Position numbers and translations under genes: made by a program
DNA from: Nonlabens ulvanivorans
GTDB lineage: Bacteria > Bacteroidota > Bacteroidia > Flavobacteriales > Flavobacteriaceae
Reading direction: 5' to 3'
Length of the DNA stretch: 64,000 bases
NCBI RefSeq assembly: GCF_000732625.1
Contig: NZ_JPJI01000032.1
Coordinates: forward strand, 1,102,193 to 1,166,192
Notes under the pieces: model-generated
Seen by the model: the letters and a program-made list of their open reading frames with translations, nothing else
Databases searched by the model: none
Told to the model about the DNA's origin: nothing
Shown: positions 2,075 to 62,762 of the stretch, in pieces
Layout: each line of letters starts with the position of its first letter
How positions within the stretch are numbered: position 1 is the stretch's first letter

Positions 2075-5000
2075 ATGTATAGAATAGCGGTCATATTTCT
2101 CTTATTATTGAATGCTGCAGCTGCGCAAGTCAGTAGTTTTCAATTTCAGCATCTGTCTACAGCTCATGGTCTTTCTCAAAGTAGTGCTATAGCTATTGAG
2201 CAAGATGAATTAGGTCAGATGTGGATTGGTACCCGTGATGGCCTTAATGTATATGATGGTCATAAAATCACCGTTTTTAAATCTGATGGAGAGAATATTA
2301 ATTCCCTAAGTAGTAGTGATATATTATCACTTGAAAAAGATCAGAATGGTCAGATATGGATAGGAACTTATAATGGGCTTAATCGTTATAATCCTAAGAC
2401 TGATACCTTTACAAGGTTTTTAAAAACTAGTGATAAAAATTCTTTAGCTAGTAATATCATTCAAGAGGTCTATGCTACCAGTGATGGTAATATGTGGATA
2501 GGTACCTCAAAAGGTCTTTCTATATATAGCCCAAGTAAAGATTCCTATTATAATGAGATATTTGAGGAAGTACAACAGGAAGTTGTCGTTTACAGCGTTA
2601 TAGAGCTTTCACCTATTTCATATTTAATAGGAACTAATCTAGGTTTATGGTCAGTTGAAAAAGATGATCAAAATGGTACTTATGCTGTTTCTCGATTTAA
2701 CTCCTATCAAAATGATGACATTACAGACATCGTACCTGCAGGAAAAAACAGATATTTTATAGGTACAAAATCTTCAGGTGTATTAGTCTATGATAGTCTT
2801 TCTAAAGAGCTTAAGTCTTTTGTTATCAATGAGGATTTACACATTGATGATATACGTAAGTTACGATTAGATAAAGATGATAGGCTATGGATAGGAAGTT
2901 ATAATGGTGTTTACATTTATAATAAAGGACAAGTAAGTCATCTTACTAATAATCTAAATGATCCTTATAGTCTTGAAAAAAACTCTGTTAAAGCTCTTTA
3001 TGAGGATGCAAGTGGCTCGATTTGGGTAGGTACTTATTATGGTGGAGCAAATATCTGGAATGAAGCAAATAGTAACTTTCAGAATTATGTTCAAAATGGG
3101 ACTAATAAAGGCCTTAACTATCCCGTAGTTAGCTCTATGCAATCTTCAATAAATCAGCTGTTTATAGGTACAGAGCAAGGTGGTGTAAATATTCTAGATC
3201 TCGACACTAAAGATTTTAAATATCTAACTAGTGAGAATAGTGACTTAGTAGAGGATAATATTAAAACACTTTACCTCGATCAAAATAAGTTATATATAGG
3301 AACATTTAGTAACGGTGTTGATGTGTATGACATAGATAATGAGCAGTTTACAAAAAGCCCACTAAGTGACATACTTAAAGATGTAGGAGTGTATTCCATT
3401 TTGAAATCTGGAAATCACTTCTATTATGGAACTTTTGGAAAAGGTGTAATCTCGCAAGATGCTACTAAGAATATTACCACTTTAAATCGTGAAGATGGTC
3501 TTACAAGTGATTTGGTAAGATCCTTATTATTTGATAACAATGGGACACTATGGGTGGGAACTCAAAATGGTCTGAATAGTGTTGATAAGAACAATAAAGT
3601 CTTAAATTATTTATTTGATAAAAATCAGGATGCAGGCTTTGATGTGTTGCACCTCTATGAAGATAGTAATAAGGTAATATGGGCTGGAACTAAGTCCCAA
3701 GGTCTCTTTAAAAAAGTAAATAATCAGTTTTTAAAAGTTCCATTACAATGGGCTGATAAAGAAATTACAACTATACATTCTATTATCGAAGACGGTAATG
3801 GTATGCTTTGGATGAGTAGTAATCAGGGTATTTTAAAATTAAATAAGGATACTGAACAAATTTTATCTCTTAATCAGCAAAAAGATGGATTAGTAGGTAA
3901 TGAATTTAGTGATAATGCTGTGTTACGATTGCCACAAGATCAGCTCGTTTTTGGTAGTGTATCAGGGATATCTTCTTTTAATACTACTAAAATACGTACA
4001 GATAACTATGCGCCAGATGTACTCATTACCAACTTTAGAACTACAGGCGATGATTTATTGAAATTTAATGATAACAATGTTGAGGTTGAAAATATCGCTT
4101 TCGCGAAAGCGTTAAAAATAGATCATAATCAACGTAATTTTACCATTGAGTTTACAATGCCTAGTTATCATAATTTAACCAGTAAGACCTATGAGTATAG
4201 GTTAAATGGATTAGAAAAAGAATGGAATACAACGGTAGAGAATAAAGCCACCTATGCAATTCAAAATGCAGGTGATTATAATTTTGAAGTGCGTGGCGTT
4301 AATGGCGATGGGATCAAAAGTGAGATTACAACTTTAATCATAAAGGCAAAACCTGCGCCGTGGTATAGCTGGTGGGCATTTGTCTTGTATACAGCGGTAT
4401 TTATAGCAGTTGCTTATGTTTCATTAAGGATACTTAAATCTAGAACTAGATTGCAAGAAGAATTAAAATATGAACAGATTCAATTGCAACGAAATAGAGA
4501 TATTAATGAGGCTAAACTACAGTTTTTCACTAATATTTCTCATGAGTTTAGAACACCACTTACCTTGATATTAGGGCCATTGCAGCAATTGCTGGCTGAT
4601 TATAAAGGGACTAATAAAATGTACAAAAAATTATTAGTGATAGAAAGCAATGGTAAACAATTGCTACAGCTTATTAATACTCTAATGGATTTTAGAAAAT
4701 TGGAAAAAAATCAATTTGAAATTCATGCAGCCGAAGGGAACATCGTTAAGTTTTTAAAAGAGATATATTTTAGTTTTAAGGAACATGCAAAATTAGGAGA
4801 ATACGATTATGACTTTAAAACCATTGATGAAGAGATTCTAGTTTACTATGATAGACAAAAGTTAGAACGTGTATTTTTTAATCTCATCTCTAACGCATTT
4901 AAATTTACACCTAAAGGAGGAAAAATTAAAATAAAGATATCTAGAGATAAAGAACTTATTCACATTAAGGTAAAAGATAATGGGATAGGAATAGAACAAG

Positions 5001-6085
5001 AGAAGCAAGAAAAAGTCTTTGATCGCTTTTATGAGGTAGAATCTCATAAGGAAAATGCTAGCATATATAACCAAGGTACCGGTATCGGGTTAAACATTGC
5101 AAAAAATATAGTCCAACTACATAAAGGACAAATTAAATTGCAGAGTAAGGTTAATCAAGGTTCGACATTTTTAATATCCCTTAAGCTAGGAAAAGAGCAC
5201 TTTACTGAAGATCAGATAATTTCAGACTTTAAGTTTAGTGACGATGTTACACAGTATACCAATCAACTTGAGAACCCTAATTTAATCGCTGAGCCGTCTA
5301 GTATCGATTTTATTAATGACGAGGAGAAATCTACTGTTCTCGTAGTAGAGGATAATGTTTCTCTAAGATCGTTTATGGCTCAATTGTTAAAACAAAAATA
5401 CAATGTGCTAGAGGCTGGTAATGGAGAAGAAGCTTTCAAAATAGCAGTAAATAGTAACCCAGATATTATTGTGAGTGATGTGGTAATGCCTGTTATGGCA
5501 GGTACTGAATTATGTTCTAAAATAAAAGAAGACGTGCGTACCAGTCACATACCGGTAGTCCTATTAACATCAAGATCATCATTAATTTATAAACTAGAAG
5601 GTCTAGAAAGTGGTGCTGATGATTATCTAAGTAAGCCTTTTGATATTAATGAGCTACAATTGCGTGTAAAGAATCTTCTTTCTTATAAATCTAGTTTAAA
5701 AAAGAAATTTGGAAATGGGGATTTGTTCACGCCCGATGAAGTAAGTGTGTCTTCAGTAGATGATGAGCTTATGAAAAAGGCAATCCAAATAGTAGAAGAT
5801 AATATACCTAATGATCATTTTGATATACCTACATTTTGTTCAGATTTAGGAGTCAGTAGAACTATGTTATTTATTAAGGTTAAGGCTTGGACTAATTTTA
5901 CTCCTAACGAATTTATACAACATTTTAGAATGAAAAGAGCTGCTCAATTATTAGAATTGGGTACCCTTAATATTTCTGAAGTAAGTTATAAAGTAGGTTT
6001 TAGAAACCCAAAATACTTTAGTAAATGCTTCCAAAAAGTCTATGGTGAGACTCCATCAGTTTATTCCAAAAAATTCTCTGTTTAG
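2075..6085 (+). CDS. Hybrid two-component system sensor/regulator (HTCS)
   Basis: This 1336-residue single-protein signalling system of Bacteroidota senses a carbohydrate in the periplasm and activates nearby genes. A signal peptide is followed by a periplasmic two-propeller sensor with Reg_prop repeats ([13 protein letters not shown]-like units) and a Y_Y_Y domain to about residue 745. A membrane helix lies at about 765-785. The HisKA motif SHEFRTP has the phospho-acceptor His823, and the HATPase contains [14 protein letters not shown]. The receiver domain (about 1087-1200) has Asp1135 in SDVVMP, and an AraC-type HTH covers about 1230-1336. All key residues are present. It lies 210 bases before susC on the same strand and probably controls susC-susD-GH88-GH2. 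A 16-base palindrome is embedded at 4096-4111, coding for AFAKA. Confidence 0.95.
4096..4111. repeat. 16-base palindrome copy 1 (perfect)
   Basis: CGCTTTCGCGAAAGCG inside the HTCS gene, read in the frame that gives AFAKA. Confidence 0.9.
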
Positions 6086-6116
6086 AATTTGATTTTAACA
6101 AATAACCCTTTGAAAC

Positions 6117-6146
6117 TCCCGATTTTAATGAAATCGGGATTTTTTT
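6117..6146 (+). terminator. Rho-independent terminator after the HTCS gene
   Basis: Stem TCCCGATTT / AAATCGGGA (9 bp) with a 5-base loop and a run of seven T. It separates the regulator transcript from susC. Confidence 0.85.
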
Positions 6147-11037: not shown

Positions 11038-12222
11038 ATGAAAATCTTTTATAACATTAGCTGGCTCTTGACCTGTATTATTTTTTTTACCTCCTGCAAG
11101 CCTCATGAACCTAAAGAAATAATGACTGCTGATATTGATCAGCTTTTGATCGCTCGTTATAACAAAGTACTCAACTACACATTAGATTCGACAGCCTTTC
11201 CACGTAGTTATAATCCTGAGGCAAAACAAATACTCAAGCGACCATCAAAAGATTGGACGAGTGGCTTCTATGCAGGAAACTTATGGATGTTGAGTGATAT
11301 TACTGAAGAGTCTCGCTTTCGCGAAAGCGCACAAAAATGGACCGCATTTATAGAGAAAGAAAAGTTCAATGATAGAACTCATGATATGGGATTCAAGGTG
11401 TACAACAGTTTTGGTTTAGGATACAATCGTACAGGAAGTGAGAAGTATAAAAATATTCTAATAGAAAGTGCCCAAACGCTAGCTACACGATTTAATCCTA
11501 ATGTACAATCTATAAGATCTTGGGATTTTAGGGCAGACGAATGGGAATTTCCAGTCATTATTGATAACATGATGAATCTTGAACTACTTTTTGAAGCGAC
11601 TAAATTATCGGGCGATTCTACCTTTCATAAATTAGCAGTGAAACATGCTAATACCACATTAAGAAATCATTTTAGACCAGACGACAGTACGGTACATGTG
11701 GTGGTATATGATACGATTAATGGTAATGTAAAAGAACGTGTAACTCACCAAGGTTATAGCAATGAGTCTGCATGGGCTCGTGGACAAGGTTGGGGCATTT
11801 ATGGATATACGATGGCTTATAGATATACTAAAAACGAAGATTATTTAAAACAAGCGCAGGCGACTGCAAACTTTTTTATTAATCACAAAAATTTACCTGC
11901 AGACGGTATACCATATTGGGATTTTGATGCTCCTAACATTCCAGATGAGCCCAGAGATGTGTCTGCAGCTGCTATAGTAGCATCAGCTTTGGTAGAGCTT
12001 TATGGTTACACGGATAAGCAAGATTACATTAATTATAGCAGGAAAGTATTAAATAATTTAAAGTCTGAGGAATATATCCTTCCTGCTGACCTAGAGATTC
12101 CTTTTATTCTTCAACACAGCTCTGGTGACTGGTCCAAACGATCAGAAATGGATGAACCTATCATTTATGGAGATTATTATTTCCTTGAATTGATGCTACG
12201 CTTACAAGAACTGGATCAATAA
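11038..12222 (+). CDS. GH88 unsaturated glucuronyl hydrolase (lipoprotein)
   Basis: 394 residues; lipoprotein signal with cysteine in FFTSCKPH. GH88 enzymes remove the 4,5-unsaturated uronate that a polysaccharide lyase leaves at the non-reducing end. They do this by hydrating the vinyl ether, in an (alpha/alpha)6 barrel. The two family aspartates appear as Asp116 in HDMGF and Asp176 in IIDNMMN, a spacing (60) close to that of the characterised Bacillus UGL (88 and 149). GWARGQ-like text (SAWARGQGWGIYG) is also typical. It is followed 21 bases later by a GH2 gene, so the two probably act in order on a lyase product. The substrate (glucuronan, ulvan-like or other) is not determined. A 16-base palindrome is embedded at 11314-11329, read as RFRES. 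Confidence 0.9.
   Translation: MKIFYNISWLLTCIIFFTSCKPHEPKEIMTADIDQLLIARYNKVLNYTLDSTAFPRSYNPEAKQILKRPSKDWTSGFYAGNLWMLSDITEESRFRESAQKWTAFIEKEKFNDRTHDMGFKVYNSFGLGYNRTGSEKYKNILIESAQTLATRFNPNVQSIRSWDFRADEWEFPVIIDNMMNLELLFEATKLSGDSTFHKLAVKHANTTLRNHFRPDDSTVHVVVYDTINGNVKERVTHQGYSNESAWARGQGWGIYGYTMAYRYTKNEDYLKQAQATANFFINHKNLPADGIPYWDFDAPNIPDEPRDVSAAAIVASALVELYGYTDKQDYINYSRKVLNNLKSEEYILPADLEIPFILQHSSGDWSKRSEMDEPIIYGDYYFLELMLRLQELDQ
11314..11329. repeat. 16-base palindrome copy 2 (perfect)
   Basis: CGCTTTCGCGAAAGCG inside the GH88 gene, read in the frame giving RFRES. Compare the different frames at 4096 and 17935. Confidence 0.9.
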
Positions 12223-12243
12223 TTTTCACTTTAAAACTACTTT

Positions 12244-14655: not shown

Positions 14656-14780
14656 AGCTCCTTGATAGGGATAGTAAAGACTTCATCTAGGATCTCCATT
14701 GTTGTCTTTAAAGTCCACTTAAAACAGTAGTACTTAATCAATTTAAACTCTTAAACTTGCACAGTCATAATTAATAGTTG

Positions 14781-15632: not shown

Positions 15633-15758
15633 AAAACTTCTATTAACTTCTCACTTAAGCAAATTCTCAATAATCCTACCTTTTTAATCAGATTGTTTAA
15701 ACAAAAGACCTCTTGGATTTGCAATTCCACTATGAATACCTTTATTTTGGACAACCAG

Positions 15759-15772: not shown

Positions 15773-15821
15773 TTTGATAAGACTGATTTCTATTACCTTA
15801 TCTTTTAAACTTGACTGATTT

Positions 15822-18032
15822 ATGCTTCAAAGAATTATAGTTCTTGCCTTTTTAATAATGACTGCCACTGCATGCGAGCAAAAGCAAACAGCGATAGAAT
15901 CTTCTGGTTCAAGTAGTCAACTTCTTTTATCTACTTCAGGAATAAATGCTTTGAAAAATTCTGATAATTCAATAATTAATCAAGCCACAGAAAGTTTAGA
16001 GGATAAAGTGCAGGAAATATTAATTGAGCCAGTAATTATTCCACAGCCCGTTGATGCTGGTGGTGGTTATTCTCACGAGAAGCATAAAAGAAATTATGCA
16101 GAGTTGTATCAAGTTGCCATTTCATATAACCTAAATCCTAGTGATGAAAAACTAACTTATGTGAAAGAAATGTTTGATGGATATGCTAATATGTATCCTA
16201 CGTTAGGAATGCATCCTAAAGATAAAGAGAATCATCCAGGTGGTAAATTATACTGGCAAGGCCTCAATGAAGCGGTAACGCTTTTTTACATGATACAGGC
16301 TTACGATATGACTCGTGATTTTATGACAGAAGAAGAACGTGCAAAAATTGAAAGTGATTTATTACGCCCTATGGCAAAGTTTTTAAGCGTCGATAGTTAT
16401 GATGTCTTTAATAAGATTCACAATCACGGGACATGGTCTGTTGCTGCTGTAGGAATGACTGGGATGGTTTTGGGTGATGACGATATGATAGACCGTTCTA
16501 TTTATGGAAGTAATAAAGATAGTAAAACAGGTTTTATAGCTCAATTAGATCATTTGTTTTCTAGTGATGGGTTTTATAGTGAAGGACCTTATTACCATCG
16601 TTATGCTATTTTACCATTTATAGCTTTTGCAGAGGCGATTGAGAATAATCGTCCAGATGTGAAAATATTTGAGCATCGTGATGGTATTTTAAGAAAAGCT
16701 GTGACTACCTTATTGCAACTTACGGATGAACAAGGTCGTTTTTATCCTATCAATGATGCTATTAAAAGTAAGACATGGGAAAGTGATGAGGTTGTGTTTG
16801 CAACAAATATTGCCTATAAACAATATAAGGATGCATCTTTATTACCAGTAATTAAGATGATGAATAAAATATCATTAACAGATGCTGGTGCTATAGCTGC
16901 AAATGCTATAACAGATACCACTGAGGATTTTTATGAAAGACCTAGTATGTTCATTGCAGATGGAGTAGACGGTAACAGCGGTGGACTATCATTAATGCGC
17001 AGTCCACAAAATACAGCAGGTCAATTACAAACAGTTCTTAAATTCTCTACCCAAGGTATGGGACATGGACATTTTGATAGATTAACTTTATCTGTTTATG
17101 ATCATGGCAATGAAATTATACCAGATTATGGAGCAGCAAGGTTTCTGAATATAGAAACTAAAAGAGGTGGAAGATATTTACCAGAAAATAAAACCTATGC
17201 TCAACACACCATAGCACATGGTGCTGTAGTGCTGGACCAAAAATCACAATATAAAGGAAATGTAAAATATTCTGAAGAGCATGTTTCTCAACTTGTCAAA
17301 AACGATATGAGTAACGATCGATTACAAGTAACCATAGCAGCAGATACCATGGCATATGATGGTTCAAAATTGTCCAGATCAATCACCATGGTTAATGATG
17401 CAGATATCACAAATAGACCATTTATAATTGATTTGTATCATGTGGATTCTAATACAGGCCATCAAATGGATCTAAATTATCCATTCTTCGGTGATATAAT
17501 CGACACGCAATTTGATTATAATAGACCAGTTAATAAAACTGTTTTAGGAACTGATAATGGATACAATCACCTGGAAGTTCTTGCAAAAGGTTCACCTAAA
17601 CCTAACAGCACGAACTCTCAATTTACCTTCTTACAAGCTCAGCGATTTTATAGTATCACTAGCGTTACAGATCCGTCGACAGAATTATTCATCACTCAAA
17701 CTGGTGCAAATGATCCAGAGTTCAATCTTAATCTACAGCGTCAGTATTTAATTAGACAACCATCAGGAAGTAAAAACCACACTTTTGTAAATATTATAGA
17801 ACCGCATGGCTTCTTTAATCCTATTCAAGAAACGGTGACTTACCCTAAATCTGCCTTTTCAGAATTAACGCATGAGCAACAGGGCGATTATGATGTGGTA
17901 ACTTTTAAAATTGGAGAAGAGATTTATTTATACACGCTTTCGCGAAAGCGCGATGGCAAAAACAATCATACAATAACATTTAACGGGAAATCTTATAGTT
18001 GGGATGGACCACATCAATTAATTAAATTATAA
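15822..18032 (+). CDS. PL17 oligoalginate lyase (exolytic), lipoprotein
   Basis: 736 residues, the usual PL17 length. Lipoprotein signal with cysteine in TATACEQ. An (alpha/alpha)n toroid comes first and a heparinase II/III-like beta-sheet domain from about residue 390. Active-site positions known from PL17 enzymes are visible: Asn201-His202 in HNHGTW, Tyr258 in PYYHRYA and the histidine motif GMGHGHFD (His415/His417). The enzyme cleaves alginate oligomers to the unsaturated monomer in the periplasm. The next gene starts directly after its stop and encodes the KdgF-like cupin that takes that monomer, so this heads an alginate operon. A 16-base palindrome at 17935-17950 codes for LSRKR near the C-terminus. 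Confidence 0.93.
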   Translation: MLQRIIVLAFLIMTATACEQKQTAIESSGSSSQLLLSTSGINALKNSDNSIINQATESLEDKVQEILIEPVIIPQPVDAGGGYSHEKHKRNYAELYQVAISYNLNPSDEKLTYVKEMFDGYANMYPTLGMHPKDKENHPGGKLYWQGLNEAVTLFYMIQAYDMTRDFMTEEERAKIESDLLRPMAKFLSVDSYDVFNKIHNHGTWSVAAVGMTGMVLGDDDMIDRSIYGSNKDSKTGFIAQLDHLFSSDGFYSEGPYYHRYAILPFIAFAEAIENNRPDVKIFEHRDGILRKAVTTLLQLTDEQGRFYPINDAIKSKTWESDEVVFATNIAYKQYKDASLLPVIKMMNKISLTDAGAIAANAITDTTEDFYERPSMFIADGVDGNSGGLSLMRSPQNTAGQLQTVLKFSTQGMGHGHFDRLTLSVYDHGNEIIPDYGAARFLNIETKRGGRYLPENKTYAQHTIAHGAVVLDQKSQYKGNVKYSEEHVSQLVKNDMSNDRLQVTIAADTMAYDGSKLSRSITMVNDADITNRPFIIDLYHVDSNTGHQMDLNYPFFGDIIDTQFDYNRPVNKTVLGTDNGYNHLEVLAKGSPKPNSTNSQFTFLQAQRFYSITSVTDPSTELFITQTGANDPEFNLNLQRQYLIRQPSGSKNHTFVNIIEPHGFFNPIQETVTYPKSAFSELTHEQQGDYDVVTFKIGEEIYLYTLSRKRDGKNNHTITFNGKSYSWDGPHQLIKL
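17935..17950. repeat. 16-base palindrome copy 3 (perfect)
   Basis: CGCTTTCGCGAAAGCG inside the PL17 gene, read in the third possible frame (LSRK). Confidence 0.9.
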
Positions 18033-20061: not shown

Positions 20062-22362
20062 TTAGTACACTAATTTTAGAGCGATGTTTTCAACTACCTT
20101 AATTTCTCCAGAGTTGGTAATCGTGTTGTTGATAGGTTGTTGACCTTTTGCACCCCATAAGACCGCTGTCAGTTTGGTGTGATTATCTTTAAATGTATTG
20201 TCCTTAAAAGTTACATTAACGATACCTCTAGTATTCACTAATATTTCATCGCTATCTGTTTTTCCACAATTCATAAAAGTATTACCAGACAGATTTAAAA
20301 CACCACCTATAGTTGATTCATCATATCCACCACGATAAAAGTCAATCACTTCATTGGATATATTTTCAAAGGTAGAATTAGTAACCGTTAAGAATTCTAC
20401 GTTATAATCTCCTTTATCATCAGTTTCTTTATCCAGCAAGAAACCATTTTTACAATTATTAAATTGAGAATTATTAACTATAATCTCATCTGCAAAGGAA
20501 CTTTTTGAGGCATCTATAACTGATTTAAAATTAGAAACACTAACATTTTTCAAATGGATTCCATAAGCCATGGACATATTCTCATCTAGCGTATTGAAAA
20601 GGTCTTGTTCTGGCGTTCCCAAAATATTTAAATTTTCTAAACTTAATATTCCTTTAGGTTGCATTAAGAAACCAGTTTTTAAGGCATCAAATTGAATTGT
20701 TGCTTTATCATTTGCTCCACGTATAGTAAGTTCCTTTGATAGAGGTATGGTTTTATCGATTAAGTAATTACCTTCACTTAAAACGATAACATCCTCAGAA
20801 TTTGCATTTTCAATCGCGGCTATTAATTCGTTAGTGTTAGAAACCTTATGTGTTTTAATATCTTGATTTCCTGATGCAGCTGTAAACCATTCTGGACCGT
20901 AATTATCAGTCATTAATTGTACAGGTTCTTCTTGAATTGGTGGGATAATTGCACCTATGTAATTTTGATCTTGATTTCTGTTTTTACCTAATGCATCTGT
21001 TTCTATAGCATTAAAGTTAAATCCATTGTATAATTCCTTTTCATAGGTTGTAGGAGTGTAGTAGATATCATATGCTGGTTTTAAGTCCGCTTTCGCGAAA
21101 GCGAAATAATCCAAATCTGTTGTGTTATTATCATATGCAGTGGTATATAGATTACTTTTAAACTTAACACCGTCAATCTTATCGTAAGCCTTAATTGGAT
21201 AAGAGGTAGCTGACTGGTTGTAAACAAAATTATTTGCAAAAATGACTCTTTCAGGTCTAGCAGATCTAATTTCTGATGGTGGTAGTACTTCGGCTTGATC
21301 TAGATTTACACCTACAGAAAAGTGAATAGGTTGCTCGCAGTTGATCCAGCTGTTGTGTGCAATTACAGCATCGGTAACTTGATTGTATCTATTTAGTGGT
21401 GATTTAGGGATACCATTCATCACTGCAAGTGCCGCACGAAATTCCTGACCTTTCAAGCCGTAAAAATAATTGTTAGTAATCCAGTGACCAGTGTTAATGA
21501 CTCTAATTCCGCCTACGTATGGATTATCATTTGCAATAAATAAATTACCACTGATAGTAGCGTAATTACCATGACGCGTGACTACAGATCCTTCACTTTC
21601 TAAAAATACATTGTTGCTGAAGTTGTTAAAATTAGATTTACTAGATATGATTTCAACCTCACCATTACATTTTTCAAAAAGGTTGTTAGTTACCTGAGTG
21701 TAAGATGGAGTCATAGAAGTCATACTAGCTCCTAACTGCATAGTCTCTGCCTTAGGTCCTCCTTTTCTAGGGCGTGGCCCGAAATGATTATCATGAATTT
21801 TATGATAATTGTTAATATGTCTATTATCATTTAAATAAACTTTTACGGTTGGACCTTCATTTGATTTTCCAGCGATATAAGAATGGTCTAGCTCGTTATA
21901 CTGTCCATAAAACTCTACCCAATGATCTTTTCTGTGTCTATCTAGTTGAGTGTAATCTTCTATTACGGTACCTGTAACGCGGCAGTTGTATGCTATAGAA
22001 TCTGGACTATTGCGGAATATGATAACAGCTTCATCTGGTGTGTAACCATTCTTAAAATATAAATCTTTGACAATTAAGTGTTCTCCACTTATTTTTAAAA
22101 CAGATTCACCTTCTAGCGTTACTTCTCCTGGCGTTTCTGCTCTCAAGGTTATAGGTTGTTTTTCAGTTCCTGTAGCATGAAATTTTATTTGAGAATTTTT
22201 CCATACGCCATTTGATAAAATTATCTCATCACCAGGTTGAGCATTATCAATCGCGTTTTGCAAATCTTCTATATTCTTTACAACTGTATCCGAAGGATTA
22301 TTTTGTTCTTCACTGCAGCTGAAGTTTAAAATTAATAGTAGAATAAGAAGTAGCTTTTTCAT
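20062..22362 (-). CDS. PL6 alginate lyase, two beta-helix domains, lipoprotein
   Basis: 766 residues; lipoprotein signal (ILNFSCSEE). Residues about 25-470 form the catalytic PL6/chondroitinase-B beta-helix. Lys242 in ISSKSNF and Arg263 in VTRHGNY are spaced 21 residues apart, as are Lys250 and Arg271 of chondroitinase B. A second parallel beta-helix (about 490-766) gives the two-domain form known from AlyGC-type enzymes. It degrades alginate, often poly-G or poly-MG, and would feed PL17. It is convergent to the PL17 operon and has its own promoter region. A 16-base palindrome at 21088-21103 codes for AFAKA. Confidence 0.92.
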   Translation of the reverse strand: MKKLLLILLLILNFSCSEEQNNPSDTVVKNIEDLQNAIDNAQPGDEIILSNGVWKNSQIKFHATGTEKQPITLRAETPGEVTLEGESVLKISGEHLIVKDLYFKNGYTPDEAVIIFRNSPDSIAYNCRVTGTVIEDYTQLDRHRKDHWVEFYGQYNELDHSYIAGKSNEGPTVKVYLNDNRHINNYHKIHDNHFGPRPRKGGPKAETMQLGASMTSMTPSYTQVTNNLFEKCNGEVEIISSKSNFNNFSNNVFLESEGSVVTRHGNYATISGNLFIANDNPYVGGIRVINTGHWITNNYFYGLKGQEFRAALAVMNGIPKSPLNRYNQVTDAVIAHNSWINCEQPIHFSVGVNLDQAEVLPPSEIRSARPERVIFANNFVYNQSATSYPIKAYDKIDGVKFKSNLYTTAYDNNTTDLDYFAFAKADLKPAYDIYYTPTTYEKELYNGFNFNAIETDALGKNRNQDQNYIGAIIPPIQEEPVQLMTDNYGPEWFTAASGNQDIKTHKVSNTNELIAAIENANSEDVIVLSEGNYLIDKTIPLSKELTIRGANDKATIQFDALKTGFLMQPKGILSLENLNILGTPEQDLFNTLDENMSMAYGIHLKNVSVSNFKSVIDASKSSFADEIIVNNSQFNNCKNGFLLDKETDDKGDYNVEFLTVTNSTFENISNEVIDFYRGGYDESTIGGVLNLSGNTFMNCGKTDSDEILVNTRGIVNVTFKDNTFKDNHTKLTAVLWGAKGQQPINNTITNSGEIKVVENIALKLVY
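21088..21103. repeat. 16-base palindrome copy 4 (perfect)
   Basis: CGCTTTCGCGAAAGCG inside the PL6 gene; encodes AFAKA on the minus strand. The next copy to the right is 10 kb away. Confidence 0.9.
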
Positions 22363-31134: not shown

Positions 31135-31656
31135 ATGAATAATGAATTTATAGAATCCCACATACACGACATCCCAGATTTTCCTAAAGAAGGAATCATT
31201 TTTAAGGATATTTCTCCATTACTCGCTTCCGCGAAAGCGAGATCAATCACCACAGAATTACTCGTTAGAGACTTTAGAGGTCAAACTATTGATGTGGTAG
31301 TAGGTATTGAATCAAGAGGTTTTCTTTTTGGAATGCTACTAGCAGATGCGTTAAATGCAAAATTTGTGATGTTGCGTAAACCTGGTAAATTACCTGGAGC
31401 CATTATTTCACAAGAGTATGAGCTAGAATATGGTACAGATACACTAGAGCTACAGGAAAATGCAATTTCACCTGGTGATTGTGTTTTGATACACGATGAT
31501 GTGCTAGCAACAGGAGGAACCGCAATAGCCGCAGCTCAAATCATTCAGAAAGCTGGTGGGAAAGTAGAAGGTTTTAACTTTGTTATAGAACTAGACTTTA
31601 TCAATGGGCGCGAAAAAATTAAAGATTATAAGATCGCATCAGTACTTCACTATTAA
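31135..31656 (+). CDS. apt: Adenine phosphoribosyltransferase
   Basis: 173 residues, the standard Apt length. The PRPP-binding motif VLIHDDVLATGGTAIAA at about residues 120-136 is clear, as is GIESRGFLFG at about 60. It salvages adenine with PRPP to AMP in the cytoplasm. An imperfect copy of the 16-base palindrome at 31224-31239 codes for ASAKA near residue 32. The gene is alone, between DUF4139 (divergent) and a tRNA (convergent). Confidence 0.95.
   Translation: MNNEFIESHIHDIPDFPKEGIIFKDISPLLASAKARSITTELLVRDFRGQTIDVVVGIESRGFLFGMLLADALNAKFVMLRKPGKLPGAIISQEYELEYGTDTLELQENAISPGDCVLIHDDVLATGGTAIAAAQIIQKAGGKVEGFNFVIELDFINGREKIKDYKIASVLHY
31224..31239. repeat. 16-base palindrome copy, one mismatch
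   Basis: CGCTTCCGCGAAAGCG in apt; one change from the perfect sequence. Confidence 0.75.
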
Positions 31657-39823: not shown

Positions 39824-40144
39824 TAGTTATGATTTTTTAGTTGCGGCAAAAGTAAAAGTCCCATCCAGCAATTTTTAAAAATCAAAATCAATGAATCTTT
39901 AAGCATTTGTAATCAATATGGACCTGCTCGTTACTCAAAGGTTAAGAGTTTTAATTAAATGTTTATTATACTGTTTAATTAATTCATAACCAATGAGCTA
40001 AAAGATGTGTTTATATTTTAACTAAAGGTTAAAATTTTGCTAGCTTTTTTTAATCTGTCTTAAATTGATTGTGATAAATCCATCTTAATTGGTTGGTAAT
40101 AGATATCGCTTTCGCGAAATTTGAATCTTAAAACAATTGTATTT
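39824..40144. other. Divergent intergenic region
   Basis: About 320 bases between two divergent lipoprotein genes. It contains TACTTTTG on the minus strand (39847-39854), a possible -7 element for the PhoX-like operon, and a truncated palindrome copy at 40107. AT-rich with no clear RNA or ORF. Confidence 0.5.
40107..40119. repeat. Truncated palindrome copy
   Basis: CGCTTTCGCGAAA followed by T instead of GCG; 13 of 16 bases, in an intergenic stretch 25 bases before a start codon. Confidence 0.6.
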
Positions 40145-44399: not shown

Positions 44400-44415
44400 C
44401 GCTTTCGCGAAAGCG
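44400..44415. repeat. 16-base palindrome copy 6 (perfect), intergenic
   Basis: CGCTTTCGCGAAAGCG, 4 bases past the Omp85-like stop codon and before a convergent gene. It can fold as a hairpin, but without a T-run on + (ATATAAAA follows). It is the only perfect copy outside a gene. Confidence 0.88.
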
Positions 44416-49594: not shown

Positions 49595-50587
49595 ATGAAA
49601 TTTAAAGTTACCATTCTTTGTTGTGTTTTCGCTTTCGCGAAAGCGGAATTTTCCAATTCTCAAAATAACGAACTGGGAGAAGTGCTTACCGATATGTTAC
49701 TCATATCTGATAGATATGTGCAACCAGCAGCAGAGGCATCTGTGATGCAATCTAGTGCTGGTTGGTATTATAGTGCTAATACTTTAAGTAAATATAAGGT
49801 TACTGTTGCGTTACATGCCAATGCATTAGTTTTTCCATCAAGTAAGAAAAGTTTTGAAATCAATAATGATGAATTATTGAATTTAACGATACGAGGTGAC
49901 GAGTCCACGACTATACCTACTACATTAGGTGGTGAACAACGCACATTCTTTGATTTTACTATAGATGGTGAAGAGTACGAATTTCAGGCTTTTGAAGGTA
50001 TCGATACGGGATTTCTAGCATATCCATTCTTACAGGTTGGAGTAGGGTTGTGGCAAGAAACAGAGCTTCTGTTAAGATATTCACCTAATATAAAAATAGA
50101 TAAATCTGATTATGCAATTTATGGAATTGGAGTAAAACATAATTTATCACAATATTTATTCAAGGGTGATCGTCCTGTTGAGCTGGCGTTTTTAACCAGT
50201 TATTCTTTATTTGATTTAAATCTATCATTCAATCCATATGAATTACGATCTGATGATAATTCTCCACCGTTAGCAGTAATTGATGGATCTTTAGTTGATG
50301 CTCATGCTATATTATTTCAATTAATAGGTAGTAAAGATTATAACAATTGGACCTTTAGTTCTGGTGTTGCTTATAATCGTAGCTGGATAGATTATGAGTT
50401 AAGTGGAGATGACGGTTTTTTTCTACAGACCTTGAACGATGTTCTCAGTGTACTAAGTGAAACGCAGCATAGCTATAAAGTGGATTTAGGTGCTACCTAT
50501 CATTTTAATAATTGGGATTTGAGTTCTCAATTAAGTGCTGGTAACTTCATCAATTTAAATATAGGTGGTGTTTATCATATTCAATAA
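49595..50587 (+). CDS. DUF6588-like secreted protein, probable barrel
   Basis: 330 residues. The signal peptide end is written by the 16-base palindrome (49630-49645): FAFAKA followed by EFSNS, where AKA fits a signal peptidase I site. The remainder has repeated amphipathic strands and ends in NIGGVYHIQ, as in outer-membrane barrels. It resembles DUF6588 proteins. Function unknown. Monocistronic, divergent from YbjQ. Confidence 0.72.
   Translation: MKFKVTILCCVFAFAKAEFSNSQNNELGEVLTDMLLISDRYVQPAAEASVMQSSAGWYYSANTLSKYKVTVALHANALVFPSSKKSFEINNDELLNLTIRGDESTTIPTTLGGEQRTFFDFTIDGEEYEFQAFEGIDTGFLAYPFLQVGVGLWQETELLLRYSPNIKIDKSDYAIYGIGVKHNLSQYLFKGDRPVELAFLTSYSLFDLNLSFNPYELRSDDNSPPLAVIDGSLVDAHAILFQLIGSKDYNNWTFSSGVAYNRSWIDYELSGDDGFFLQTLNDVLSVLSETQHSYKVDLGATYHFNNWDLSSQLSAGNFINLNIGGVYHIQ
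49630..49645. repeat. 16-base palindrome copy 7 (perfect), inside a signal peptide
   Basis: Encodes AFAKA at the signal-peptide cleavage region of the DUF6588-like protein. Confidence 0.9.
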
Positions 50588-54884: not shown

Positions 54885-56777
54885 ATGACTTCATTTGTAG
54901 GGAAATGGAAGTTGTTAGTGATCGTGTTCTTTGTTGGGTATTACGCTTTCGCGAAAGCGGAAACACCAGCAACCATTGCACATACTATCTACTCCAATAC
55001 AGAAATTGCAACCTTTAGTATAGATAAAAGTTCAACACGAACCGAGATTTTTGAACTTTTCAAAGAGCTTTTTATCAATCATAGTGTCAAAGCCAAATTA
55101 AATGGATATAAACGTCATGGTGGTGTCATAACCTTACTAGACCTGACGTTGACTGATCAAAATGGAACCATTTTTCCTTTAAATCTTCAAAATGATAAGG
55201 GTATCGATACTGTTTGCTTAACGCTTAATCCTGCATTCAATAATATTGTTGAATTTGCACCATGTGATGTTGCCTTAAAAGCTGTTACACCTATAAGTGC
55301 CTCTCAATATGGTCAGTTTTATGAGACAACTTTTGTGGACTCTACAGAAGTTGATGAAAAAGAAACGGTTCAGAAAGCAGAAGAAACTGTGAAAGAAAAA
55401 GCAGATTCTCGACAGACTGCTCAAGAAGTGATAGCTGCACGTAAGGCAAAGACAGAAACGGAAATAGAAGCGGCCAGATTGAGAGTGAAACAGCAACAAG
55501 AGCAACGACGTATAGATGTGCTAGCTAGAAAAGCAAAACTAGAGGCACAACAAGCGGAAAAGCGTATTCAAAATGAACAATTAATTGCAGATCGAACTTT
55601 GAAACGAGAACAGCAATTAAGAGAGGTAAGTGAACGACAACTGGCGAGAAGGCAAGAAGCAGAAGCGGCACGTATAGCAAAGTTAGAAGATGAAAAAAGG
55701 CAAATAGCTATTGAAACGGCTAGATTAGAAACTCTTGCGCAAGAAGAACGTCTTCAGTTAGAAACTCTTGAAAAGGAACGGCTTGCTGCTCAACAACGAC
55801 AAGAACAACGACGATTACAGGAAGAGCTAGATAAAAAAGAAGCGCTGCGATTAAAAGAGGAAGAAAAAGAACGAGCTCGAGAAGTAATACGCGTGCGTAA
55901 AAGACTGGAAGCTGAACGATTAGAGCAAGTTAAGGCAGAAAATGAACGAGTAAAGAAAGAAAAAGAGGCTCTAGAATTAAAACGGTTAGAAAGACAACTG
56001 GAACTAGATAGACTCGCCCTAGAGCGACAAGCTTTACAAGATGAACTTAATGCACAATTAGAGAAAGAACGTCTCATCGAAGAAGAAAAGAGAAGAGCGG
56101 CACTGTTAAAAGCAGAACAGGAATTAATTGATGAACGTGAAAGGTATAGAGAAGATCTGGGCCAGGCAGACTCTCGTAAGCAACTTATGGTTAATGCAAA
56201 TGAACAAGGCTATATTGCTATAGAGGACCGAATTATAGAGCAAGGCTATTTAATGTTCAATGCAGAGCAGTGTAGCTTTAAAGTATACATGGGTCGTACT
56301 TTTATTTATGACGCCTTTGGTGCTAAAATATTAACCATCGATGATGAATTGACAGATGCACCACAAAGTGGTAAGGTTATCGTTAATCAAGTAGAGGCTA
56401 CTTATGAATTTACAGAGAATCTACTTATAATTAAAAATTCACAAGGTCAACTTATTGATGAAGAAGGTAAAGTGGTAGGTGCTGGAGTTAATAGTACCGA
56501 TTCACAAAGTCAAGATTTTAAAACAACGCATAGTTTTAAAATACAGATTCATTTTTCTGATGATGAAATAAAAAACGTTTTTAATCAAATCGAGCAATAT
56601 CAGTTTGATACAGAGCTGTTAGAATCCACATTTAATCAAAGCGGTAGTCTGACTAATTTGGTATTTAGAATAGATGACGAGTCATTTGTTTTCAATGTAT
56701 TGGACTCAAATTCATTTATATTAATAGATATCGATGAGAGAAATAATCGAGTAAATGTAAGTAAGAAGGAGAATTAG
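54885..56777 (+). CDS. Secreted coiled-coil protein with terminal repeated domains (paralogue 1)
   Basis: 630 residues. The signal peptide is built partly by the 16-base palindrome (54944-54959): YAFAKA, then ETPATI, with AKA fitting a signal peptidase I site. Residues about 40-115 are an alpha/beta domain (FSIDKSSTRTEIFELFKEL, then ITLLDLTLTDQNG). Residues about 150-430 are a coiled coil very rich in E, K, R, Q, L. Residues about 455-540 are a second domain (EQCSFKVYMGRTFIYD) and about 550-625 a second copy of the first type. The next gene has the same order. The M56 peptidase further on seems to carry the first-type domain too. Function unknown. Confidence 0.75.
   Translation: MTSFVGKWKLLVIVFFVGYYAFAKAETPATIAHTIYSNTEIATFSIDKSSTRTEIFELFKELFINHSVKAKLNGYKRHGGVITLLDLTLTDQNGTIFPLNLQNDKGIDTVCLTLNPAFNNIVEFAPCDVALKAVTPISASQYGQFYETTFVDSTEVDEKETVQKAEETVKEKADSRQTAQEVIAARKAKTETEIEAARLRVKQQQEQRRIDVLARKAKLEAQQAEKRIQNEQLIADRTLKREQQLREVSERQLARRQEAEAARIAKLEDEKRQIAIETARLETLAQEERLQLETLEKERLAAQQRQEQRRLQEELDKKEALRLKEEEKERAREVIRVRKRLEAERLEQVKAENERVKKEKEALELKRLERQLELDRLALERQALQDELNAQLEKERLIEEEKRRAALLKAEQELIDERERYREDLGQADSRKQLMVNANEQGYIAIEDRIIEQGYLMFNAEQCSFKVYMGRTFIYDAFGAKILTIDDELTDAPQSGKVIVNQVEATYEFTENLLIIKNSQGQLIDEEGKVVGAGVNSTDSQSQDFKTTHSFKIQIHFSDDEIKNVFNQIEQYQFDTELLESTFNQSGSLTNLVFRIDDESFVFNVLDSNSFILIDIDERNNRVNVSKKEN
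54944..54959. repeat. 16-base palindrome copy 8 (perfect), inside a signal peptide
   Basis: Encodes AFAKA at the signal-peptide cleavage region of the coiled-coil protein. Confidence 0.9.
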
Positions 56778-58917: not shown

Positions 58918-58918
58918 G

Positions 58919-61705
58919 ATGGAAGCAGTTATAGAATATTTACTTAAAAGTGCTGGTGTACTAAGCAACTTTGTCCTTACATATCATTTTTTATTGCGAC
59001 GGTTGACTTTTTTTCAAGCAAATCGGTGTTTTCTATTTTTAGGTATTATTGCATCCATTGCCTTCCCATTGATAGAAATTACACAGACTGTTTATGTGGA
59101 ACAACCCATTCAACAATATACATATGTACCACAGCAAGTAGCAACGCCCATGGCAATAATGCTAGAACAGCCTGCAATTCCAGTAGATACAGCTTTTGAT
59201 TACTGGCAGCTTTTCGGCTTTTTATATGTAACTGTTATGGTTTTCTTTATAGGTAAAATGATAGTAGAGCTTAGCTCACTGTATCGTTTAATACGTTCAG
59301 GTAAGACCGTTAAGAGCGGGAATTTTGTGACGGTTACGCTTTCGCGAAAGCTGACTCCTTTTAGTTTCTTTAATTATATATGTATTAGTGAATCAGAAGA
59401 GCCCAGTGCTGCGCTAGATGTCATATTAGATCATGAGAAGGTACACGCCAGACAATGGCATAGTATTGATGTATTGCTGAGTCATTTATATAGAGCCATC
59501 TTCTGGATCAATCCGCTGGCGTGGTGGTTAAAAAAGCAAATAGGAGAGAACCTAGAGTTTATCGCAGATGCCGAAGCAAAAACGCAAACTAAATCTGGTG
59601 TTAGTTACGAGCGTACTTTATTGAGTAGCGCTGCATTTCATCTACAACCTTCACTAGCTAATAATTTTTTCACACCATTTATTAAAAAACGTATTATGAT
59701 GTTACAAAAAGAAGCCAGTGCACGCTGGAACGCATATAAGTATGCATTAATATTACCAGTAATTGTTGTTTTTCTCTACAGTTTTAATGTAGTTACTGAA
59801 GTTGAGTATCTAGAATTAGAAAATGATCCAACTCTAGATATTCAAAATTCATTAAAAGAGAGCAATGATCTAAATATGATCAATGCTGTTAAGGTTTCTA
59901 AAGCAGATTCTATTCTTAAAACCTCTGAAGAGCTTATCTATGATATCACAGCACAGACAACTGATGAAGATTTAGATAGGTATGCATCACAAATCAATGA
60001 CTATGCAAATTATCAAGTGAAATTTAGTGATCAAGAACGTGATGAAAGAAATAGATTAAAACGTCTTAGTATCTCTACAAAGTTTCCTGAAACAAAATGG
60101 GACAAGAACATGACTATTGGGACTGAGCCTTTTAAGTTATTACTTATTAAAGCTAGTAAAGAAAAGCTATGGGTGAATGATGATAATTCAAGTGAGACAT
60201 TATACATCACTAAAGATGGAGTTCATGTAGAAATGGGAGACGATTGGACCTATGGAGATTTAAATATAGAGCAAGATGAAAATTTTCAATGGAGTGAGGT
60301 AAACTCTAAAGATGTGAAGATTTACATTAAAATCACACCTACATCTACTAAAGAGTCTTTAGAAGAACATAAAAAGTTTTTAAAAGAATCTCATAACGTT
60401 GATTTCAAATACAGTAAGCTTAGATATAAAGAAGGAAAGCTGGTGTCTATTAAAATAGAACTGGATGATAATGATGGAGCAAAAATAGCACAGACCTATA
60501 AGAATGACACCGCAATACCTAATATATGTATTAACGGTTCTATAAAAGGAGATCACAAAAACTGGAAGCTCAACAATTGCGAGGATGCACCTCAAACTAC
60601 CTATCAATTAGGTGATGTTAAGTATATGAACTTATCACCTGATGAATATCATCAACTGACGCAAATGAATGTAGATAGTATTATGCAAACAATAAAATTG
60701 AGTACTATAAATATGGACTCATTACAGAATCAAATTGATTTGCAGCTTATGAATATCAATTTTGACTCTATTGAATCACACATTCAAAAATCCTTAATTT
60801 ATATCAATTCAGATTCAATAGGTAATTATTATCAAGAGTTACCAGATTTAAATGACTTAGATGATATTAATTACTCGCGGTTTGAAATGCCTAATAGTAA
60901 TTTAAGCTCTGGTAACTACATCGTTATGAATAACTCTGATAGTGAGAAACAGTTAGTTATAGTGGATGGTAAAGAATTTAATGGGTCTGTTTTAAGCGGG
61001 AATATGGACATGAGTAATGTTGCTTCAATGAATATATTAAAAGGTGAAGATGCAACTGATTTATATGGTGAGAAAGGAAAAGATGGAGTTGTGATTATTG
61101 CTACTAAAGATGGTGAAGGACTTAAAGAATTGCCAAGTAGTGTTGATAGAAGAGCACTGATGGATCAAAGACGATTTGAAATGGATTCTTTAAGAGCGAT
61201 GAGAAGAGATCAAATGGAATCTAGAAGGCAAGAACTATTACAACGCAGAGATGAAAAGAGACAACAAGCTCTCATTGAAAGAGATAGCTTAAAAAGAAGA
61301 GTTTCTATAGATTCTATAAGAATAGATAGAAACATGAGGATAGAAGAAAGACGTACAGCTATACTACAAGAAAGAGAAAGGAAAAAGGATGAAATAAATA
61401 AAAGGAGAGAACATATTATTGCTAACTCTCGTAATGGTGAATCTACACTTAGTGAAATTATAACCTCAGATACGCTTATGAACTTTAGTGAAGGGATGCT
61501 GGAAAAGTATGGAGAAAAAGTAAGAGCCAAAGGATACTCTTTCAATATCAAAACCTTTAAAGAACGCAATGGTAAAGTTGTAAAATTAAAAATAGAATTT
61601 GCAGGCACTGATTATGCCATTGCTACTAATAAAGGAATAAATAAACTCACTTTTGACTATTTCAAGGATGGGTTAAGTCCTAAAATGACATCCGTAAGTA
61701 ACTAA
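58919..61705 (+). CDS. M56 (BlaR1-like) membrane metallopeptidase with TonB-plug-like and repeated periplasmic domains
   Basis: 928 residues, far longer than BlaR1 (about 600). Membrane helices fill the first 300 residues. The zinc motif HEKVH (172-176) sits in LDHEKVHARQWHS, and ENLEFIADAEA near 217 is the typical third-ligand region. A last helix (about 280-300) leads to a large periplasmic part: repeat-type domains near 345-400 and 465-545 (KITPTSTKESLEEHKKFL), a TonB-plug-like stretch near 665-740 (MNILKGEDATDLYGEKGKDGVV), a basic Arg-rich coil (about 750-845) and a last repeat-type domain to the end. Coupled to the BlaI gene. A near-perfect palindrome (59337-59352) codes LSRK. Confidence 0.88.
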   Translation: MEAVIEYLLKSAGVLSNFVLTYHFLLRRLTFFQANRCFLFLGIIASIAFPLIEITQTVYVEQPIQQYTYVPQQVATPMAIMLEQPAIPVDTAFDYWQLFGFLYVTVMVFFIGKMIVELSSLYRLIRSGKTVKSGNFVTVTLSRKLTPFSFFNYICISESEEPSAALDVILDHEKVHARQWHSIDVLLSHLYRAIFWINPLAWWLKKQIGENLEFIADAEAKTQTKSGVSYERTLLSSAAFHLQPSLANNFFTPFIKKRIMMLQKEASARWNAYKYALILPVIVVFLYSFNVVTEVEYLELENDPTLDIQNSLKESNDLNMINAVKVSKADSILKTSEELIYDITAQTTDEDLDRYASQINDYANYQVKFSDQERDERNRLKRLSISTKFPETKWDKNMTIGTEPFKLLLIKASKEKLWVNDDNSSETLYITKDGVHVEMGDDWTYGDLNIEQDENFQWSEVNSKDVKIYIKITPTSTKESLEEHKKFLKESHNVDFKYSKLRYKEGKLVSIKIELDDNDGAKIAQTYKNDTAIPNICINGSIKGDHKNWKLNNCEDAPQTTYQLGDVKYMNLSPDEYHQLTQMNVDSIMQTIKLSTINMDSLQNQIDLQLMNINFDSIESHIQKSLIYINSDSIGNYYQELPDLNDLDDINYSRFEMPNSNLSSGNYIVMNNSDSEKQLVIVDGKEFNGSVLSGNMDMSNVASMNILKGEDATDLYGEKGKDGVVIIATKDGEGLKELPSSVDRRALMDQRRFEMDSLRAMRRDQMESRRQELLQRRDEKRQQALIERDSLKRRVSIDSIRIDRNMRIEERRTAILQERERKKDEINKRREHIIANSRNGESTLSEIITSDTLMNFSEGMLEKYGEKVRAKGYSFNIKTFKERNGKVVKLKIEFAGTDYAIATNKGINKLTFDYFKDGLSPKMTSVSN
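59337..59352. repeat. 16-base palindrome copy, one mismatch
   Basis: CGCTTTCGCGAAAGCT in the M56 gene; last base changed. Confidence 0.75.
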
Positions 61706-61764: not shown

Positions 61765-61809
61765 ATATTTAGAGAATTGAACTTATCGATAATAAGATAC
61801 CTTTGCATC

Positions 61810-61962
61810 ATGAGAAAAAAGCTCTTTAAAATATTAGCCCGAGTTAATAAAGCCGTTTTACCCAGCTTTACAAAACGTCGATTAGATTTAAGCAAGGCCA
61901 GTAAATGGCAAATGATGATCTTCGGTTATAAATTATGGGTAACTAAAAACGCACTTGACTAA
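61810..61962 (+). CDS. Small basic flavobacterial protein
   Basis: 50 residues from ATG 61810 (MRKKLFKILARVNKAV...), ending ...VTKNALD. An upstream start at 61777 is not favoured. Similar 50-residue proteins occur widely in Flavobacteriia, and I recall that some are labelled SsrA-binding protein by automatic tools. Length and content do not fit SmpB. Its TAA overlaps the next ATG (TAATG), so it is coupled to the BtuF-like gene. Confidence 0.75.
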   Translation: MRKKLFKILARVNKAVLPSFTKRRLDLSKASKWQMMIFGYKLWVTKNALD

Positions 61963-62762
61963 TGTTTATATCAATCACTGACCAATGTTACCGTACTGTT
62001 GATTTACCACAGCGCCCTTTGCGTATTGTTTCCTTAGTACCTTCACAAACAGAGCTTCTTGTAGAATTAGGACTTGAAGAATACCTAGTAGGTATTACTA
62101 GATTTTGTGAATATCCAACTGGATTAATTGATAAAATAAAAGTGGTAGGTGGTACAAAAAAGGTGATTGCTTCACGTATTTGGGAAGTTCAGCCAGATCT
62201 TATCATTTGTAATAAAGAAGAGAACACACAAGAGATTGTTCTAGCTTGTCAAGAAATCGCACCTACATACGTGTCAGATATAGCTCATCTAGATGATGCT
62301 ATTGAAATGATTGCAGACATAGGAAAAATGACTGGGACTAGTTTTAAAGCTAAATCGTTAGTGAATAGAATCAAAATAAACTTCAATCATTTTGATAAAG
62401 AATCACACAGTGCAGTCAACGCACTATATTTAATATGGAAAAATCCTTACATGACAGTTGGTAGCGATACCTTTATTCATGATATCATGGAGCGTGGTGG
62501 TTATAAAAACATCATGGATGGAGCTAGTCGTTATCCAGAATTGACGTTACAAAACATAATTAATTTAAATCCTGAAGTGATTCTGTTCTCATCAGAACCT
62601 TATGCTTTTAATGATTTAGATAAGAAGGAAATTGAAGACGCTTTCGCGAAAGCGGAATTAAAAAGTCCCAGATTGTTAACCGTAGATGGGACGTATTTCT
62701 CATGGTATGGCAGCCGTTTAAAAGACACACCTAACTATTTCAAACAATTGAATTCTAATTAA
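61962..62762 (+). CDS. BtuF-like ABC substrate-binding protein
   Basis: 266 residues, cobalamin/siderophore-type binding fold (PF01497): RIVSLVPSQTELLVELGLEEYLVGITRFCEYP at the start, WEVQPDLIICNKEEN near 70 and GGYKNIMDGASRYPELT near 180. No signal peptide is visible, which is odd for a periplasmic protein but common in flavobacterial members of this group. No BtuCD partner lies nearby. A palindrome at 62639-62654 codes AFAKA near residue 227. Confidence 0.82.
   Translation: MFISITDQCYRTVDLPQRPLRIVSLVPSQTELLVELGLEEYLVGITRFCEYPTGLIDKIKVVGGTKKVIASRIWEVQPDLIICNKEENTQEIVLACQEIAPTYVSDIAHLDDAIEMIADIGKMTGTSFKAKSLVNRIKINFNHFDKESHSAVNALYLIWKNPYMTVGSDTFIHDIMERGGYKNIMDGASRYPELTLQNIINLNPEVILFSSEPYAFNDLDKKEIEDAFAKAELKSPRLLTVDGTYFSWYGSRLKDTPNYFKQLNSN
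62639..62654. repeat. 16-base palindrome copy 9 (perfect)
   Basis: CGCTTTCGCGAAAGCG in the BtuF-like gene, giving AFAKA. Confidence 0.9.

Follow-up and report, generated by a model that had tools for sequence, protein, structure and literature searches.

The window analysed here is a 64,000-nucleotide stretch of the Nonlabens ulvanivorans genome (a 3.21-Mb draft in 45 contigs), taken from contig NZ_JPJI01000032.1 (C32; 1,660,217 bp), and the element in question is a 16-bp perfect palindrome, CGCTTTCGCGAAAGCG, hereafter the word. Thirteen copies are found in the window: nine perfect, two with one mismatch and two with three, at a mean spacing of ~4.9 kb (smallest, 2053 bp; largest, 10136 bp). 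On rescanning, the nine perfect copies fell exactly where the first-pass annotation had placed them, and the four degraded copies that it listed proved to be real. Its claim that the word lies far above random expectation also holds, with 0 matches to the 16-mer in 100 dinucleotide shuffles of the window.

Eight of the nine perfect copies are inside open reading frames (ORFs), with the frames and hosts earlier claimed for them: six are read as AFAKA, one as RFRES and one as LSRK, and a stop codon occurs in none of the palindrome's three reading frames. The AFAKA copies are at 4096..4111 in a hybrid two-component sensor (ORF 2075-6085, +), where the same codons form a perfect copy in an N. ulvanivorans homologue (L024); at 21088..21103 in a chondroitinase B-like ORF (20062-22362, −), whose N. 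xiamenensis homologue (L061) is without the word, the alignment being gapped at the site; at 33277..33292 in a Cys/Met pyridoxal phosphate-dependent enzyme (32611-33774, −); at 49630..49645, near the N-terminus of a DUF6588 ORF (49595-50587, +); at 54944..54959, near the N-terminus of an ORF with no Pfam match (54885-56777, +); and at 62639..62654 in a periplasmic binding protein (61962-62762, +). The RFRES copy is at 11314..11329 in a GH88-like ORF (11038-12222, +) and the LSRK copy at 17935..17950 in an alginate lyase/heparinase-like ORF (15822-18032, +), and the ninth perfect copy (44400..44415) falls in the 29 bp that separate two convergent ORFs, whose ends are at 44396 (+) and 44426 (−). 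The one-mismatch copies are at 31224..31239 (T6>C; phosphoribosyltransferase ORF 31135-31656, +) and 59337..59352 (outer base; M56 peptidase-like ORF 58919-61705, +). Those with three mismatches are at 37738..37753, within ORF 36544-38352 (−), and at 40107..40122, where the end of the copy covers the two opening bases of ORF 40121-40924 (+). The hosts come from unrelated protein families, and 1 of 10 has no Pfam match. The window also contains a group of polysaccharide-degradation genes (11038-22362: GH88-like, alginate lyase/heparinase-like and chondroitinase B-like), which probably belong to a polysaccharide utilisation locus, and an Rfam match to the L19-Flavobacteria ribosomal protein leader at 47849-47876 (−).

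Over-representation is not confined to the window: the genome contains 436 perfect 16-mers, against 0 for reversed controls, and 566 copies of the 14-mer core. On C32 (1.64 Mb), 236, 97, 27 and 20 places match the palindrome with 0, 1, 2 and 3 mismatches, and permuted palindromes give means of 0.0, 0.0, 0.21 and 3.4. The over-represented unit is 14 to 16 bp long: 313 copies of TTTCGCGAAA compare with 302 of the 14-mer GCTTTCGCGAAAGC, and TCGCGA is not enriched outside the sites (122 occurrences versus a mean of 251 for five other palindromes of the same composition). Among the 97 one-mismatch copies, the altered base is the outer one in 63, lies at position 6 or 7 in 32 and is elsewhere in 2, positions 2-5 and 8 being almost invariant; in G234, which represents a third marked genus besides Nonlabens and Dokdonia, the outer base is frequently a different letter.

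The palindrome sits in symmetric, A/T-rich flanks, whose pattern is strong over 17 bp and then weak out to about 50. On the strand leading outward, G is scarce between +3 and +17, A is enriched at +2, +3 and +6 to +12, and a weaker A-rich patch at +25 to +31 is followed by a faint one near +44 to +48. The strand leaving the palindrome thus avoids G yet tolerates C for 15 bases, which exceeds plain A/T-richness. One-mismatch, genic and intergenic copies all show broadly this pattern; D. sinensis has a similar one, and in G234 (50 arms) it is weaker. Because no covariation between the two flanks within a copy was detected on C32, the site is not a longer hairpin. An RNA hairpin or terminator is rejected as well, as the word shows no excess between convergent genes and the flanks are T-rich before it and A-rich after it, the opposite of a two-way terminator. 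Strong gyrase sites, considered on account of the phased flanks, are disfavoured by the deficit in convergent regions: intergenic copies number 0.546 per kb between convergent genes, 0.947 between codirectional genes and 0.90 between divergent genes.

The first-pass annotation described the copies as mostly inside genes, which is accurate as a count (8 of 9 in the window; 141 of the 236 perfect copies on C32, or 60%, in all three frames) but misses the direction of the bias: the remaining 95 occupy the ~10.5% of sequence that is intergenic, so the word is enriched outside genes. (Genes on C32 were called with a simple custom caller, and "intergenic" here includes RNA genes and missed small genes.) The copies are also unusually even. 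Perfect copies on C32 have a mean spacing of 6.9 kb and a coefficient of variation (CV) of 0.55, with no pair closer than 1 kb, and the set becomes more even when one-mismatch copies are added (333 sites; mean, 4.9 kb; CV, 0.47; 0 intervals below 1 kb versus 61.4 expected). Once up to two mismatches are allowed (360 sites), the pair correlation rises from 0.01 through 0.25 to 0.63 over the first three kilobases and stays near 1 after that. A null that preserved the observed genic and intergenic densities and allowed at most one site per gene or gap gave, over 1000 simulations, 46.6 intervals below 1 kb (minimum, 30), a CV never below 0.71 and a largest gap never under 16.7 kb; the 360 sites have one such interval, a CV of 0.44 and a largest gap of 13.2 kb. 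That gap includes a complete rRNA operon, and the second largest (12.1 kb) comprises stretches without Rfam matches. After setting aside one N-rich window and the last 20 kb of C32, all 80 of the 20-kb windows hold at least one site, with an index of dispersion of 0.28. The mark behaves as binding sites that are kept where needed and absent where another is near. Core copies in D. sinensis are likewise spaced (1 short interval versus 15.7 expected), although its perfect copies alone have a CV of 0.99 and a 30-kb gap and its copies with up to two mismatches have 5 short intervals; in 140 kb of G234, evenness is not clear (core, 2 short intervals versus 4.0).

Of the origin-terminus distribution, raised by the first-pass annotation, the part within C32, which contains the origin region, was covered: sites there number 15 to 24 per full 100 kb, with no strong positional bias, and are no denser or sparser near the inferred origin at about 560-620 kb, which is placed by a skew flip and parS. 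Canonical parS sequences are located at C32:561801 (one mismatch) and C32:563693 (perfect), near the GC-skew switch. Perfect copies are mildly sparser outside this contig, at 200 in the remaining 1.57 Mb (by subtraction) versus 236 in 1.64 Mb.

How the copies arose, and whether they are preserved, was assessed against BBFL7 (152 kb aligned at 84% identity, in stretches selected independently of the word) and through protein-guided alignments. The 14-bp core is strongly conserved: third codon positions within it changed at 1 of 47 places, versus 1038 of 2847 (36.5%) at 80-300 bp, and intergenic core bases changed at 1 of 154, versus 142 of 1254 control bases. The flanking bases changed at 38 of 120 third positions and 73 of 336 intergenic positions, the latter above the intergenic control; since they change freely, only the composition of the flanks is kept. 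Of the 22 aligned perfect sites, 18 are perfect in BBFL7, 3 have one mismatch and 1 has three, and the reverse direction gives the same picture (18 of 22 perfect, 4 with one mismatch).

The protein-guided set comprises 62 comparisons (24 within Nonlabens, 33 with Dokdonia and 5 with G234), in which not every partner is surely an orthologue because some alignments are weak (down to 20% identity). Among ungapped Nonlabens comparisons, the site is kept at the same codons in 16 of 20, some at ~52-66% protein identity; once seven perfect sites counted from both sides enter only once, retention is 9 of 13, a share biased upward by the fetching of loci for carrying the word. Against Dokdonia, 27 of 33 mapped sites align without a gap, and of these partners 26 are without the word and 1 keeps it; one site is common with G234 at 39% protein identity. 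Gaps within the site occur in 4 of 24, 6 of 33 and 0 of 5 comparisons, respectively, for a total rate of 10 of 62 (16%), somewhat above the 7-9% of control windows. From these alignments, the copies appear to have arisen mostly by substitution, with some indels near variable stretches. An insertion element is rejected because the partners mostly align gap-free. The first-pass annotation had suggested an insert of the Rickettsia palindromic element type, a comparison that rests on a palindromic sequence inside ORFs; it falls to the ungapped alignments (27 of 33 in Dokdonia, 20 of 24 in Nonlabens and 5 of 5 in G234), as the Nonlabens word is mostly not an insertion and is, moreover, 16 bp and evenly spaced. 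Its further suggestion of a selfish insert is likewise unsupported, given copies that are mostly substitution-derived and a protected core.

Among the genomes searched, the word is nearly restricted to three genera: Nonlabens, Dokdonia and the genus of G234. All 22 Nonlabens congeners are dense in it (180 to 737 perfect copies, some genomes being incomplete), as are five Dokdonia genomes (230, 550, 576, 630 and 711 copies), whereas in 36 genomes from other genera the word is absent apart from 4 copies in a single one. In a sample of 397 Flavobacteriaceae genomes from a larger group, at least one copy occurs in 48, and more than 13 copies occur only in Nonlabens, D. sinensis (G250) and G234 (153). 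The 10-base core, counted in 255 genomes, separates marked genomes (559 to 1107) from all others (0 to 34; reversed control, 0 to 28), although a few unmarked genomes are modestly above their own reversed control (27 to 7 in G086, 34 to 21 in G188). Across 395 genomes drawn from the phylum, more than 6 copies of the 14-mer are found only in the N. ulvanivorans genome itself, and 67 of 80 contig loci among the matches listed belong to Nonlabens, BBFL7 or Dokdonia. The open-licence literature yielded no report of this 16-mer, of its 12-mer core or of such palindromes in flavobacteria, and, judging by their listings, papers on palindromes in Nonlabens or Dokdonia, on uptake sequences in Bacteroidetes and on evenly placed palindromic nucleoid sites do not describe it.

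In other genera, scattered copies reappear at the set distances of 933 and 2446 bp, and we read them as moved cargo on the strength of one locus annotated in detail, L260, whose four copies lie in genes for a resistance-nodulation-division (RND) pump, an outer-membrane efflux protein (OEP; two copies) and a P-type ATPase. The surrounding region (L260:640-13605) is a metal-resistance cluster (RND pump, OEP, multicopper oxidase and P-type ATPase) in a genus otherwise without the word. Evidence conflicts on whether the three marked genera share the word horizontally or by one origin with losses. A GyrA tree rejects a single clade for the marked genera (approximately unbiased test, p 0.0097), though for a single gene and with marked rows already compared on an earlier first tree. 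RpoB identities, which are ranks and not a tree, place G234 and Dokdonia among the nearest to Nonlabens, alongside the unmarked G131, G188 and G145; because these ranks point opposite to the GyrA tree, the marked genera may instead have one origin with losses.

Phages present a mixed picture. P12024S and P12024L, whose Nonlabens host was recorded as Persicivirga, have no copy with up to three mismatches in the 35.0 of 35.7 kb scanned for each. Viral stretches that do hold the word number 41: in L152 and L142, whose proteins were tested, portal, head, tape-measure, terminase or sheath genes were recognised, L140 has the same ORF layout as L152, L138 the same site spacing as L142, and L129 has a head protease gene. 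These two kinds of tailed-phage contig (L152/L140 and L142/L138) carry the word every ~2-6 kb, unlike P12024S and P12024L. The 23 viral loci longer than 9 kb total 297 kb and contain 51 sites with at most two mismatches. This density is not a frequency, since every viral locus was selected because the word occurs in it, and several GC-rich loci have just a single copy, possibly by chance.

Over-abundance, even spacing, core conservation, substitution origin and symmetric flanks together argue that the word is a mark under selection or drive, with a symmetric protein as its probable reader, and not a selfish insert; the idea of a probably protein-read mark over-represented genome-wide, already present in the first-pass annotation, is supported. 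Our preferred interpretation, to which we give a probability of roughly 45%, is that it works like a palindromic DNA-uptake (self-recognition) sequence, in an organism whose genome has no type IV pilus ATPase. What this reading would add to the observations is a reader, an uptake step and a drive: a symmetric, probably dimeric, DNA-binding protein would recognise the word as a chromosome-wide self mark, and fragments bearing it would be preferentially taken up from relatives, or kept, and then recombined in. Such a drive would settle at roughly a single copy on each transferable fragment (about 3-6 kb), with nothing gained from another one within 1-2 kb, and uptake in this genome would bypass the type IV pilus. 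Uptake sequences are the best-fitting known system on account of number, frames, intergenic excess, even spacing and the cloud of one-off copies. Those of the Pasteurellaceae and Neisseriaceae share with the word their hundreds of near-exact copies, the majority in ORFs and in all frames, an intergenic excess, even spacing, substitution origin, clade specificity and a cloud of one-mismatch copies. They are denser, at about 1 per kb, than the Nonlabens word at about 1 per 4.5-5 kb, which also differs in its palindromic form, its symmetric flanks and the lack of a pilus ATPase in its own genome. In Haemophilus, 65% of uptake sequences are in ORFs, comparable to the 60% genic share on C32, and one account credits the observation of their even spacing to Karlin and colleagues (PMC1939737). 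Also in favour of uptake are the absence of the word from the two Nonlabens phages P12024S and P12024L, and the presence of ComEC and of the candidate pilus-free uptake gene pair described below.

Several points weigh against uptake. The same account describes known uptake sequences as not palindromic and as less evenly spaced than would be expected of compaction signals (PMC1939737). No PilB/T2SSE ATPase scored above the cut-off in the N. ulvanivorans genome (G000), G003, G250, G455 or G234, all of them dense; T2SSE is present in four other dense genomes (G007, G015, G441 and G453) and in the unmarked G116, and on this mixed distribution uptake through a type IV pilus is rejected. A pilus-free route is described in Riemerella, of the same family, whose transformation needs the genes for a TonB-type barrel and a DUF5689 surface protein and also involves ComEC and further components. 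No sequence specificity is known for any of them according to that paper, in which a DNA-binding role of the DUF5689 protein is speculation, and Flavobacterium johnsoniae has the same gene set yet was not competent (PMC8459023). The N. ulvanivorans genome has ComEC, together with adjoining genes for a TonB-type barrel (its plug domain scoring just under the cut-off) and a DUF5689 protein at C32:446181-450466 (L185:6181-10466). Because all 28 genomes searched, marked and unmarked alike, have ComEC and DUF5689, these two permit uptake but do not explain the distribution of the mark. The DUF5689 protein has no PDB relative at E values up to 1, and its alignment-free structure prediction was uninformative (mean predicted local distance difference test score, 33.6). 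A reader protein was not found, whole proteomes of marked versus unmarked genera not having been compared. Finally, some tailed-phage contigs approach the host density of the word, which an uptake role does not require.

Chromosome organisation is the rival that we take most seriously, as a possible though less probable explanation: a dimeric protein might bind the palindrome, wrap about 100 bp of flanking DNA and anchor or compact the chromosome every ~4.5 kb, with selection ensuring that no part of the chromosome is out of reach of a site, a second one close by being unnecessary. Such a role would suit the A-rich patches of the symmetric flanks near +9, +28 and +46 (the last two weak), a largest gap of 13.2 kb in 1.64 Mb that none of the 1000 simulations matched, the lack of an empty window among 80 of 20 kb, and the copies in phage contigs. 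It is because symmetry and long flanks suit an intracellular dimer at least as well as they suit uptake that we hold uptake below even odds, followed by chromosome organisation, then a Chi-like role and lastly a HIP-like by-product. The sites of SlmA, Noc, matS and parS, which are 12-16-bp palindromes bound by dimers, resemble the word in length and symmetry, but their numbers are far under its several hundred copies, and for the word no strong regional or positional bias is seen in C32. A Noc-like ParB paralogue, tried as the reader, was rejected: the N. ulvanivorans genome has one ParB_N hit and a separate canonical parS near 562 kb of C32, and among the nine dense genomes searched eight have one ParB_N hit, the second in G441 being a 616-aa type also present in unmarked genomes. 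The approximately 19-bp period of the flanks is weakly resolved, and perfect copies differ fourfold in number among congeners (180-737, with some genomes incomplete). The stronger version of this idea, a chromosome-wide ruler in which a dimeric protein of the three genera would bind about 560-1100 evenly spaced palindromes and wrap about 110 bp at each, seems to us less likely than not.

Two further explanations were considered. A Chi-like self mark, by which DNA lacking a nearby copy would be degraded after breakage or entry and a palindrome would serve both directions, could account for the upper limit on gaps, for phage contigs near host density and for a frequency of the word similar to that of Chi in E. 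coli, which has 1008 copies in about 4.64 Mb, or about 1 per 4.6 kb (PMC1939737). We nevertheless consider it improbable, since P12024S and P12024L were isolated on a Nonlabens host and lack the word. Chi, moreover, is a short oriented octamer without symmetric flanks, with no need of any this long. Resemblance to the highly iterated palindrome (HIP1) of cyanobacteria, noted by the first-pass annotation, is sound only in part, both being highly iterated, clade-specific palindromes. A by-product of that kind, in which a methyltransferase target inside the palindrome would make mismatch repair favour the full word, would fit the one-off copies that deviate mostly at the outermost base, as HIP1 copies do, and the methylation-directed repair model predicts a saturating density (both points from PMC4390886). 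HIP1 and the alternate HIPs are, however, 5-8 bp long, against a unit of 14-16 bp here (compare the near-equal counts of TTTCGCGAAA and the 14-mer); the density of about 1 per 4.5-5 kb is about five times sparser than 1 per kb; the inner, methylase-sized TCGCGA is not enriched outside the sites; and extended flanks are not predicted, so that we regard this origin as very improbable.

To our knowledge, few words are under selection across a whole genome, and every one of them has led to a cellular machine, as with Chi, uptake sequences, parS and perhaps HIP1. The Nonlabens word unites length, perfect symmetry and unusually even spacing, and its hosts are marine bacteria that include cultured strains. 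If it is a true uptake signal, it would be the first that we know of in Bacteroidota and would open pilus-free transformation to sequence-level tests; if it is a true nucleoid mark, it would constitute a periodic ruler in a bacterial chromosome, and we know of no bacterial nucleoid system with a sequence-encoded periodic architecture. Under either reading, the word may tag DNA that has moved from these genera into others.

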